Below are positions 3,380 to 31,610 of a stretch of DNA of 32,220 bases, piece by piece. The stretch is from NCBI GenBank assembly GCA_017397685.1, contig JAFQID010000022.1, positions 1 through 32,220 of the forward strand. Reading direction: 5' to 3'. Every line of letters begins with the position of its first letter. Within the stretch, counting starts at the first letter, position 1. Origin of the DNA: Bacilli bacterium. GTDB lineage: Bacteria > Bacillota_I > Bacilli_A > RF39 > UBA660. The notes below the pieces were generated by a model. It had not been told where the DNA came from and ran no database searches. It worked only from the letters and a program-made list of their open reading frames with translations. A program made the translations under genes and the position numbers.

Positions 3380-3408
3380 ATTTTAACATATATGAAAGAT
3401 TTTTACAA
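3380..3408 (-). promoter_or_regulatory. Sigma-A-type promoter of the glycerophosphotransferase operon
   Basis: Read on the minus strand: TTGTAA (3408-3403), a 17-nt spacer, TAAAAT (3385-3380), with a TG just upstream of the -10. It sits back to back with the plus-strand promoter at 3415-3442. Confidence 0.65.
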
Positions 3409-6543: not shown

Positions 6544-7653
6544 ATGATAGAAAAAATTAGAGTTTTTATGAAGAAGTGTTATGAAAAGTGTAATTTTAGT
6601 AAGATAATTTTATATTTTATATCTTTAGTTATATTGGTTATTTCAAGAAAATATAAAGGTTTTATCAATGAGGCTAATGAAGCAATTAATGATCATGTTA
6701 AGGATAAAAGTAATATTAGTAAGATTAAAAGAGAACTTATTTTGTTTAGGGTGATTTATAAGATAAGACCTAATGAGTATTTTTTGTATGATTTTAGTAG
6801 TAGAAGTTATAGTGATAGAGATAAATATATTACTAGAGAAATGACTAATGGTTATTATAAACTTATTAATAATTTTGATGCACTTAAGATTTTTAATGAT
6901 AAATATTTATCTTATAAAGTTTTTAAGGATTTGTTTAATAGGGATATGTTTTATTATAAGGATGAAGAAGATAAGGAAGAGTTTATTAATTTTGTTAAGA
7001 AGAATAATAGTTTTGTTTTAAAACCAGTTGATGGACATGGTGGGGTTGGAATTAGATTTTTAAGTTTATCTGATTATAAGAGTGTTTTGGAGTTATATGA
7101 TAGTGTTAAGGAATTTTCTCCGTTTGTGGTTGAGGAAATTGTTAATCAAAGTTTGGATATGGCAAGTTTTCATCCTGAATCTTTGAATACTGTAAGGGTT
7201 GTTACTTTTCAAAATTATGGGCATATGTCTATTGTTTGGGCTTTTTTAAGAGTTGGGCAGGGTGATAGTAATGTTGATAATATGACTAGCGGTGGTCTTG
7301 GTGCGCTTGTTGATAATGAAACTGGAATTGTTATAAGTGATGCGATTGATTATAAGGGTAGTAAGGTTGTTAGTCATCCTGATAGTAATGTTGTGTTTAA
7401 AGGTTTTAAGATTCCTGACTGGGAAGGACTTAAAAGTATTTTAGCCAAGCTTAGTGCTAAGGTGCCATCTGCTCACTGTATAGGATGGGATATGGCTCAT
7501 ACTGATAAGGGGTGGGTACTTATTGAAGGTAATGGTAGAGCGCAAGTTGTTACTATTCAAGTACTTAATGATAAGGGTTATAAACCTTTATTTGAAAAAA
7601 TGGCATATTTATGTAATGTAGATTGTGGGGATGAAAATGATGAAGAAGAGTAA
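6544..7653 (+). CDS. Sugar-transfer-associated ATP-grasp protein (paralogue 3)
   Basis: A 369-residue protein, 10 nt after paralogue 2, with GGAGATAAGG before the ATG. A hydrophobic segment (ILYFISLVILVIS, about residues 22-34) could be a membrane anchor. ATP-grasp motifs: FVLKPVDGHGGVGIRF, VVEEIVNQSLDMASFHPESL, LNTVRVVTF, VSHPDSNVVFKGFKIPDW, CIGWDMAHTDKGW and LIEGNGRAQVV. The Asp/Asn metal ligands expected of the fold appear intact, so it should be active. Its end overlaps the start region of the CapA-like gene, which implies translational coupling. Confidence 0.83.
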   Translation: MIEKIRVFMKKCYEKCNFSKIILYFISLVILVISRKYKGFINEANEAINDHVKDKSNISKIKRELILFRVIYKIRPNEYFLYDFSSRSYSDRDKYITREMTNGYYKLINNFDALKIFNDKYLSYKVFKDLFNRDMFYYKDEEDKEEFINFVKKNNSFVLKPVDGHGGVGIRFLSLSDYKSVLELYDSVKEFSPFVVEEIVNQSLDMASFHPESLNTVRVVTFQNYGHMSIVWAFLRVGQGDSNVDNMTSGGLGALVDNETGIVISDAIDYKGSKVVSHPDSNVVFKGFKIPDWEGLKSILAKLSAKVPSAHCIGWDMAHTDKGWVLIEGNGRAQVVTIQVLNDKGYKPLFEKMAYLCNVDCGDENDEEE

Positions 7654-28567: not shown

Positions 28568-28587
28568 GTGAAAGGTATGTGATTGTA

Positions 28588-30210
28588 ATGCATATTGATA
28601 AGATGATTAAAAAAGAGATAATTGGTGTTATATTAACTACGATTATTTTATTAACTGTTTTTATAGGAGTTTCTTATGCTTCATTCTTTTCAGTTGATGA
28701 GGGTGAAGAGTTAGTAATAGAAGTAGGAGATATAGATGTTACTTTTTGTAAAGATGTAAGTTGTGGTGAAGCTTATTCAAACTATGGAAAAGTAATAGGT
28801 CTTCAAACAGTTGATGGAGTAAGTACACCAAGTGCGATATACCCTTATGAAACTACAGCGGAGGCACTAGAGAGCACACCATATATATTTAATGTAGAAA
28901 ATACTGGTCAAATGAAAGTGTATTTTAATGCATTTTTAGTTGAAGATACTGATTTTGTTCCAAGTGATAGTTATTCAAGTTATACATCTATTACAGAACT
29001 ATATAGTAATCATGTGAAGATAGGGGTATCGGAATGCACTGGAGGTAATATAAATACTACTGATGTAGATGTATTTACTTTTGGAGAATTAACAAATGGA
29101 AAAATAATTGATAATGTAGAAATAAATACTGGAGAAGATAAGACATACTGTGTATGGACTTGGCTTGATAATAGTGCTCCTAATGAAGTACAAGAGACAT
29201 ATTTTGTAGCTAATTTAAACTTTACTGCTGAGTATGTGCCTGCTGAACCTATGTCTTTATATGAGAAAATACTTGCTGATAATCCGACAATAAAAGATGA
29301 TAATGCTGACCTTTTTGAAAATGTTGCTGATGAAGAGAGTGAATCGGGATTATTTAGGACAACAGATTTAACAAAAACAGAAGATGTAGATGGAGATGGA
29401 ACAGGAGAAGAAGTCCTATACTTTAGAGGAGCGGTAACAAATAACTATGTAGTATTCGCGGGATATTGCTGGAGAATAGTTAGAACAAATGAAAGTGGAG
29501 AAAGTATAAAACTAAGGTATGGAGGAGAACCAACAACCTCGGGTGATAACTATGTATGTCCTAAAACAGGAACTAAAGTAAAAATAAATAATACAGATTA
29601 TTCGTTTAGTTATAATGCGCAATATGATGATTCTAAATATGTAAAATGGGTACATGAAGATGGAATGGATAGTAATGCAAAAACACAAGTAGAAACATGG
29701 TATACAAATGAAATAGAAACACAAGGAGAAGCAATAACGAACTTAATAATAGATGAGCCATATTGTAATGATACATCAGTTGGAAGCACAAGTAGTTCAT
29801 CGACATATTATGGAGCATATACAAGACTAGATACAAATAAAAGTCCTCAATTTAAATGTCCAAATGCATCTGATAAATACACAGTAGATGCAACAAAAGG
29901 AAATGGAAAGCTTTCTAAACCGGTAGCATTATTAACAGCTGATGAAGTAGCATATGCTGGTGGTGTTAATGGTACTAGTAATTACACTTATTACTTATAC
30001 ATAAGTGCTCATTATTGGACAATGAGCCCCAGCCACTGGACTGGCTCTTATGCGTATGAGTTTCGCTTGAACTCTGCGGGCTACCCCGACCGCTACTACG
30101 TGTCCACTACTTACGGCTTGCTGCCCTCAGTTTCCCTTAGTAGCGAGGCAATGGTAGCAGATGGAGGAACTGGAGAGTACAATAATCCATATATAATTGT
30201 TGCAAACTAG
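28588..30210 (+). CDS. Membrane-anchored surface protein with a candidate hypervariable C-terminal region
   Basis: About 540 residues (start at ATG 28588; an in-frame GTG at 28579 is possible). A basic start and a hydrophobic segment (IIGVILTTIILLTVFIGVSY, about residues 10-29) form a signal or anchor. The next region, SFFSVDEGEELVIEVGDI, recalls SipW-dependent secreted proteins (TasA-like), with a beta-rich domain to about residue 230. The second half has YFRGAVTNNYVVFAGYCWRI, KPVALLTADEVAYAGG and YWTMSPSHWTG, and ends LPSVSLSSEAMVADG. This architecture recurs in surface proteins of gut Firmicutes and resembles C-type-lectin/FGE-like folds. Residues about 478-521 are encoded by an abrupt GC-rich island (see the next entry). 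Codon use is otherwise A-ending (ATA, ACA, GGA, GTA), unlike the T-ending codons of the housekeeping genes, suggesting a different history. Ligand unknown. Confidence 0.75.
   Translation: MHIDKMIKKEIIGVILTTIILLTVFIGVSYASFFSVDEGEELVIEVGDIDVTFCKDVSCGEAYSNYGKVIGLQTVDGVSTPSAIYPYETTAEALESTPYIFNVENTGQMKVYFNAFLVEDTDFVPSDSYSSYTSITELYSNHVKIGVSECTGGNINTTDVDVFTFGELTNGKIIDNVEINTGEDKTYCVWTWLDNSAPNEVQETYFVANLNFTAEYVPAEPMSLYEKILADNPTIKDDNADLFENVADEESESGLFRTTDLTKTEDVDGDGTGEEVLYFRGAVTNNYVVFAGYCWRIVRTNESGESIKLRYGGEPTTSGDNYVCPKTGTKVKINNTDYSFSYNAQYDDSKYVKWVHEDGMDSNAKTQVETWYTNEIETQGEAITNLIIDEPYCNDTSVGSTSSSSTYYGAYTRLDTNKSPQFKCPNASDKYTVDATKGNGKLSKPVALLTADEVAYAGGVNGTSNYTYYLYISAHYWTMSPSHWTGSYAYEFRLNSAGYPDRYYVSTTYGLLPSVSLSSEAMVADGGTGEYNNPYIIVAN
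30022..30150 (+). other. GC-rich candidate variable region (DGR VR-like)
   Basis: GC is about 56% over 30021-30150 (73 of 130 by hand count) inside a gene and genome that are far more AT-rich, with sharp edges on both sides. Many codons end in C (AGC, CCC, CAC, CGC, TAC, GAC, GGC, TCC) at surface-type positions, as produced when AAC-type template codons are mutated at adenines in diversity-generating retroelements. It lies at the 3' end of the gene, the normal place for a variable region. No template repeat or reverse transcriptase gene is present in this window, so the assignment rests on composition, position and protein type. Confidence 0.5.
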
Positions 30211-30230
30211 GTTCGAATCGCGTAAAGATG

Positions 30231-30267
30231 TCATTGACCCCTGAATGACCATGCCCTGTTGGGCATG
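30231..30267. other. GC-rich hairpin downstream of the variable-region gene
   Basis: CATGCCC (30250-30256) and GGGCATG (30261-30267) form a 7-bp stem with loop TGTT. Just before it is a weaker stem, TCATT (30231-30235) with AATGA (30244-30248). The 70 nt from 30211 are about 50% GC. There is no T-run, so it is not a standard terminator. A short hairpin downstream of the variable region is a known cis-element of some retroelement targets. Confidence 0.45.
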
Positions 30268-30640: not shown

Positions 30641-30722
30641 TTCTTTTATGTATTATGTCTTTGGATGTGAAGTAATTATATATATTTAAAAACAATAGAA
30701 AGATATGATGGAAAGGAAATAT

Positions 30723-31610
30723 ATGAATTATTATAATGAAATAAAAAATAAACTAATAGATAATGAAGTATTTTCAAGAGTAAAAGATTATTCAAAAGAA
30801 AGACATAAAGTAATTACTTATTATGAAATAGGAAGATTACTTAATGAAGCAGGTGGAAAATATGGAGATAATATAATAGATGAATATTCTAAAAAATTAG
30901 TTCAAGAAGTAGGCAAAAAATATAATAGAAGAACTCTATTTAGAATGAGGCAATTCTATAATGTATTTAGTAATGAAAAAGTGTCTACACTGTGGACACT
31001 TTTGACTTGGAGCCATATTAGATTATTATTTGGCTTAAATTATAATTCTATAAATTATTATATTCAAGTTATAATAAGCAAACATATTTCAGTTAGAGAA
31101 TTAGAATATAAAATAAAATCTAAAGAGTATGAAAGATTATCAGAAGATACTAAAAATAAACTAATAACTAAAGATAGTCTCGAAATAAAAGATTTTGTAT
31201 CTAATCCCATTTTAATTAAAAATAAAAATAATATAGATTTAGTTAGTGAAAAGGCATTACAAAATTTAATTCTAGAAGATATAGAATCTTTTATGAAAGA
31301 ATTGGGTAATTCTTTTAGTTTTATAGGAAGTGAGTATAAAATTAGAATAGGTAACACTTATAATTATATAGATTTATTATTATTTAATTACGAATATAAT
31401 TGCTTTGTAGTTATAGAATTAAAAGTAACTGCCCTTAAAAAAGAATATATTGGACAGATAGAAGTATATATGAATTATATTGATGAAAATATAAAGAAGA
31501 TTAATCAAGATAAAACTATAGGGATTATAATTTGTAAGCATGATAATAAATATATAATAGAGTATTGTTCAGATGATAGGATTATATCAAGAGAATATGA
31601 ATTAATTTGA
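30723..31610 (+). CDS. DUF1016 (YhcG-type) PD-(D/E)XK nuclease family protein
   Basis: About 295 residues. The frame opens at ATG 30705, but GAAAGGA at 30711-30717 favours ATG 30723, giving MNYYNEIKNKLIDNEVFSRV, a typical family start. The N-terminal helical domain (to about residue 140) has YYEIGRLLNEAGGKYGDNII, RTLFRMRQFYNVFSNEKV and the WTLLTWSHIRLLFGL core. The C-terminal nuclease domain has NYIDLLLFNYEYNCFVVIEL followed by K (Asp and ExK catalytic residues), then GQIEVYMNYID (QxxxY). Such proteins are predicted nucleases of unclear biology, often next to restriction or mobile genes. Its decayed relative lies at 4851-5067. A-rich codon use supports recent transfer. An Rpn-type gene follows. 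Confidence 0.88.
   Translation: MNYYNEIKNKLIDNEVFSRVKDYSKERHKVITYYEIGRLLNEAGGKYGDNIIDEYSKKLVQEVGKKYNRRTLFRMRQFYNVFSNEKVSTLWTLLTWSHIRLLFGLNYNSINYYIQVIISKHISVRELEYKIKSKEYERLSEDTKNKLITKDSLEIKDFVSNPILIKNKNNIDLVSEKALQNLILEDIESFMKELGNSFSFIGSEYKIRIGNTYNYIDLLLFNYEYNCFVVIELKVTALKKEYIGQIEVYMNYIDENIKKINQDKTIGIIICKHDNKYIIEYCSDDRIISREYELI

Follow-up and report, generated by a model that had tools for sequence, protein, structure and literature searches.

Several bacteria are known in which the targets of a diversity-generating retroelement (DGR) lie away from its machinery. In Treponema denticola, genes bearing variable regions (VRs) are found far from the core of reverse transcriptase (RT) and template repeat (TR), with seven targets in one strain, some of which may be leftovers of earlier DGRs (PMC4891356). 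In Thiohalocapsa PB-PSB1 the genome contains multiple DGR loci, some complete and others degenerate, and diversification in trans has been proposed for its remote targets (PMC10907252). In cyanobacteria, VR-containing C-terminal lectin domains are dispersed and fused to differing N-terminal domains (PMC7517822). Among the domains that DGRs are known to target is DUF6273, whose fold resembles that of C-type lectins (PMC10743442, PMC11792537); in Faecalibacterium phages its VR occupies the C-terminal end, and in tentaclins the VR lies at the surface of the fold (PMC11792537, PMC10743442). The literature on Treponema, cyanobacteria, and Thiohalocapsa already covers remote targets, genomes with more than one DGR copy, and degenerate loci, and the gene described here is well supported as a further example.

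Comparison with each of these systems shows both likeness and difference. As in T. denticola, the VR-bearing gene is remote from the RT/TR core, but it belongs to another target family and another phylum, and its VR fits neither assembled TR at non-adenine sites, whereas the remote VRs of T. denticola fit a single TR well (PMC4891356). Thiohalocapsa PB-PSB1 likewise combines complete and degenerate loci with remote targets; it has 15 defence-type targets at nine loci in a large genome (PMC10907252), whereas here we find 26 copies of a surface-anchored domain, 8 of them with hairpins, in 1.27 Mb. The dispersed lectin domains of cyanobacteria recall the domain architecture seen here, but those proteins are mostly cytosolic with regulatory domains (PMC7517822), and ours is membrane-anchored and extracellular. 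The gut-phage targets share the DUF6273 family and differ in being receptor-binding proteins encoded beside the RT (PMC11792537, PMC10743442), whereas the present target is a cellular surface protein encoded away from it. More notable in this genome are the number of related domains for so small a size and the hairpin module that they share.

The window, by which we mean the whole 32,220-nucleotide stretch analysed, is contig C19 of a 1.27-Mb assembly in 49 contigs that is ~94% complete. Its target gene (28579 with a GTG start or 28588 with an ATG start, to 30210, plus strand) is an open frame for a 543-residue protein with an N-terminal membrane anchor, in agreement with the membrane-anchored surface protein originally predicted. 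That prediction also described a sharply bounded island of ~56% GC rich in NNC codons, and this was borne out. The island at 30022-30150 has a GC content of 0.566, compared with 0.323 for the gene without it and 26.6% for the window as a whole, and its boundaries are sharp on both sides; the highest value for any other separate 129-bp stretch in the window is 0.457. Half of the codons in 30025-30138 end in C (19 of 38), against 4.7% in the remaining gene (binomial p about 1e-15). This segment (30025-30138, plus strand; GC 0.57), encoding SPSHWTGSYAYEFRLNSAGYPDRYYVSTTYGLLPSVSL, is assigned as the VR from its codon-for-codon alignment with the TRs of contigs C23 and C13. We refer to the TR of C23 as TR1 and to that of C13, which is closer to the window VR, as TR2. 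The 3' end of the VR (30115-30138, plus strand), GGCTTGCTGCCCTCAGTTTCCCTT compared with GGCTTGCTTCCGGCAATTTCCTTA in TR2, would by position and similarity correspond to the site of initiation of mutagenic homing (IMH).

The N-terminal part of the protein (residues 1-224; 28579-29250, plus strand) comprises a signal/anchor and an extracellular domain, and was delimited by matches to stand-alone proteins. Residues 2-225 alone are matched in at least 10 same-genus genomes by a separate protein of about 220-235 residues, which occurs in species without the DGR. The gene for the stand-alone homologue is near lepA in 7 of 7 genomes inspected and adjoins it in 6. A clean empty site in the relatives was considered and rejected, since these homologues sit by lepA and not by priA. 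On the simplest reading of the matches, an anchored protein that already existed acquired the variable domain, the gene neighbourhoods of the two forms being different.

The C-terminal target domain (29242-30207, plus strand), common to a family of paralogues, is assigned as DUF6273 or C-type-lectin-like from AlphaFold2, Foldseek, and the Pfam matches of its relatives. AlphaFold2 modelled the C-terminal 322 residues with a mean pLDDT of 87.8, and among named entries Foldseek best matched the domain to phage DUF6273 proteins and to an IgA peptidase. Pfam DUF6273 is matched in 7 of 20 aligned relatives of the target protein; Pfam and NCBIfam searches of the window protein itself returned no family above the cut-off. 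Direct matches to C-type lectins are weak, and the lectin fold is assigned indirectly, via DUF6273. The placement of the VR at the 3' end of a gene, within a C-type-lectin-like or comparable domain, is that of a DGR target.

Neither RT, accessory protein, nor TR had been seen originally; this is correct for the window and incorrect for the genome, in which contigs C23 and C13 carry them. Four RVT_1 proteins are encoded in the assembly. On the minus strand of C23 there follow in order a target gene, its VR (2966-2854), the TR (2567-2455), Avd (2191-1832), and the RT (1857-337), so that the DGR-type RT that the prediction had suggested looking for elsewhere in the genome was indeed found, beside a TR and Avd. 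TR and VR of C23 differ at 15 of 113 nucleotides, and all 15 mismatches fall on template adenines; with 33 adenines among the 113 template bases, such a result would arise by chance with a probability of about 6e-10. The accessory protein is recognised as Avd by Pfam (bAvd, 43.5 bits, above the cut-off), NCBIfam (DivGenRetAVD, 3e-10), and PHROGs (Avd of DGR). The 506-residue RT (L039, 337-1857) scores 69.8 bits with RVT_1 and 1.5e-83 with the PHROGs RT, and has the DGR-type motif LPIGNMTSQ, recognised by eye. It ends in a C-terminal MutS_I domain (PF01624) of MSL type; MSL, with the MutS_I Pfam family, has been described among the accessory proteins of DGRs (PMC10053308). The fusion of RT and MutS_I also occurs in relatives, and in one genome (G042) MutS_I is a separate protein beside Avd (L162, 806-1177). 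C23 thus combines a DGR-type RT, an adenine-only TR/VR pair, and the accessory proteins Avd and MSL.

C13 (L040, 6082-9200) holds a second, decayed copy, in which the RT ends at 313 residues with its C-terminal part missing and the TR seems to lack one base; its target gene and its hairpins remain intact. Just past the RT in both copies lies a gene of the PDDEXK_2 (PF12784) nuclease/transposase family (L040, 6082-6951; end of L039), a possible agent of DGR dispersal. The two other RTs were rejected as DGR enzymes, being classed by PADLOC as the defence types UG26 (C35; L041, 2177-3376) and UG17 with a SLATT membrane partner (C49; L042, 6706-8638).

The window VR was compared with both TRs at adenine and other sites. 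Against TR2, changes affect 19 of the 33 adenines and 21 of the remaining 77 positions (p = 0.0027); against TR1 the figures are 20 of 33 and 30 of 78 (p = 0.027). Opposite the 13 AAY codons of TR1, the window has NNY in all 13 and NNC in 10 (p about 1e-11). The C-terminal domain of the window gene is encoded at 26 places in the genome, the window gene included. Ten other paralogues show an adenine excess against TR1 or TR2 at p about 0.001 or lower. Ten paralogues of low GC (L018, L025, L030-L034, and L036-L038) show none (p 0.05 to 0.85), indicating that the exposed positions are not variable by nature. The original proposal of a DGR variable region with its partner elsewhere is supported by the complete and decayed DGRs on other contigs, by the codon-for-codon homology of the VRs, and by a hairpin element in common, and we regard it as very probable that the island is the VR of a gene that a cellular DGR targets remotely.

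With 26 copies of this domain present, the diversified 3' end may instead have come from another DGR-diversified paralogue by gene conversion or duplication, with no homing at the window locus. Paralogues C32b and the C23 target gene, which are 89.5% identical over 1.6 kb, and copies such as L019, which have TR2-like VRs and no hairpins, are consistent with such exchange. However, the assembly contains no donor with the backbone of the window VR, for which the closest DNA match outside itself reaches 69% across 219 bases, and the window retains the hairpin element expected of a direct homing target; we consider this origin unlikely.

This element, a pair of inverted repeats at 30230-30267 that was overlooked in the earlier reading, starts 20 bases past the stop codon of the target gene. 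The first repeat (30230-30249, plus strand), found by DNA folding and aligned in eight targets, has a 6-bp stem and an 8-nucleotide loop; the second (30250-30267, plus strand), CATGCCC-TGTT-GGGCATG, has arms that are invariant in the eight targets of the genome. Together the two hairpins fold as DNA at -10.8 kcal/mol (z -3.1), with 1 of 200 shuffles equally good. In the form CATGCCC-N3-4-GGGCATG, the second repeat follows the stop codon in 8 of the 26 targets, both RT-adjoining targets among them, and six of the eight have no adjacent TR or RT. Retrohoming in BPP-1 requires a hairpin/cruciform downstream of the VR, which in phage DGRs lies 4-34 bp past it (PMC3240598). By analogy, the second repeat is likely to be the counterpart of this structure, although at about 90 bp from the window VR it is more distant than in phages. 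The remote targets resemble the C23 locus up to a point just before the TR, indicating that the target end and hairpins are common to them and the TR is not.

Genomes of relatives served as controls. Relatives of the C23 RT were detected in 28 of 147 relatives' genomes and in 0 of 17 from the same genus. In all 14 measurable homologous domains from same-genus genomes with no detected DGR RT, the VR equivalent has a GC content of 0.24-0.37 and 0-5% NNC codons, and hairpins are absent, indicating that the island goes with the DGR and not with the protein family. Eighty RT relatives from named genomes, mainly those of uncultured Bacilli, were put through an automatic TR/VR scan, which gave a match for 43, nearly all of these matches being adenine-only pairs; the match at L098 was rejected as low-complexity AT sequence. 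These data bear on whether the island could be an ordinary GC-rich segment, arising from protein composition or a horizontally transferred gene fragment with no DGR involved. GC-rich islands can mark foreign DNA, and the position of the gene is not strictly conserved among relatives. Yet the same genome has a DGR with homologous VRs and hairpins, and the homologous protein segments are AT-rich in species lacking a DGR, which makes this explanation highly improbable.

A TR matching the window VR at non-adenine sites was not found in the assembled genome by a DNA search with the VR, by the homing-end pattern, or by a query in which adenines were placed in the window VR at the expected template positions. 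The near-copy differing only at adenines that the original prediction proposed to look for did not turn up; TR2 comes closest, with the non-adenine differences given above. Judged by these backbone differences, neither assembled TR is the direct template of the window VR. The adenine-substituted query also found no template for it among 147 relatives; the best outside match, in G042 of another genus, is the TR of a DGR there and was rejected as the template of the window gene. In viral contigs, an 18-base pattern gave two unrelated matches only, and no relatives of the target domain were found. A TR serving as direct template would have the backbone CCCAGC-AAC-TGGACTGGCTCT...CTGCCCTCAATTTCC; either it falls in the 5-6% that the assembly lacks or it has been lost. 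The absence of a TR is weak evidence, because the assembly is ~94% complete and in 49 contigs.

If that TR has been lost, the VR would be a fossil, once written by a DGR and now static. The lack of a matching TR in the assembly, the decay already seen in one of the two DGR copies (the shortened RT and short TR of C13), and the several paralogues that keep a GC-rich VR and have lost the hairpins all fit such a history. On the other hand, the window VR is the most GC-rich among the eight hairpin-bearing targets and has drifted little toward the AT-rich composition around it, and the stems of its hairpins are intact. We consider a fossil VR a substantial possibility, somewhat short of even. Of the 24 positions at the VR's 3' end, 5 are non-adenine sites that do not match TR2, suggesting that present homing from TR2 may be poor, and whether the window VR is still active at present is in our estimation evenly balanced. 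The rival readings overlap the main one, in that a fossil VR is also a DGR product.

For the island as the VR of a remote DGR target, we infer from sequence that retrohoming wrote it, and did so in trans. The RT and Avd acting on the window gene would be those encoded on C23. They would copy TR RNA into cDNA with misincorporation at template adenines, and the cDNA would take the place of the homologous sequence at the 3' end of the gene, altering exposed residues of the C-type-lectin-like (DUF6273) domain on the membrane-anchored protein. Target domain, VR, and hairpin element would have spread together through the genome, here joined to an N-terminal domain that is stand-alone in relatives. 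We tentatively suggest, as a broader and rather speculative possibility, that a reduced-genome, gut-type bacterium uses one or two DGRs to diversify in trans a genome-wide array of surface receptors. The lectin domain would move onto unrelated anchored proteins as a single cassette together with its VR, homing end, and hairpins, and several TRs with distinct backbones would serve distinct subsets of targets. Eight hairpin-bearing targets in 1.27 Mb would allow one to ask whether the hairpin module defines a target in trans and how such modules become joined to new surface proteins. More generally, in an AT-rich genome a sharp island of GC accompanied by NNC codons can flag a DGR target whose retroelement is tens of kilobases or contigs distant.

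Other genes of the window were noted in passing. Directly 3' of the target gene is a YhcG/DUF1016 PDDEXK nuclease gene (30705-31610). A protein with numerous repeats of the LTSAEGLxLPxSIGGDLYLSSL type is encoded at 56-1570. Between 3392 and 9926, four related open reading frames (at 3392, 5499, 6544, and 8841) have segments in common, such as HPDSxVxxKGxxIPxW, with another frame at 7625, and this cluster looks like a sugar-phosphate or capsule-type locus.
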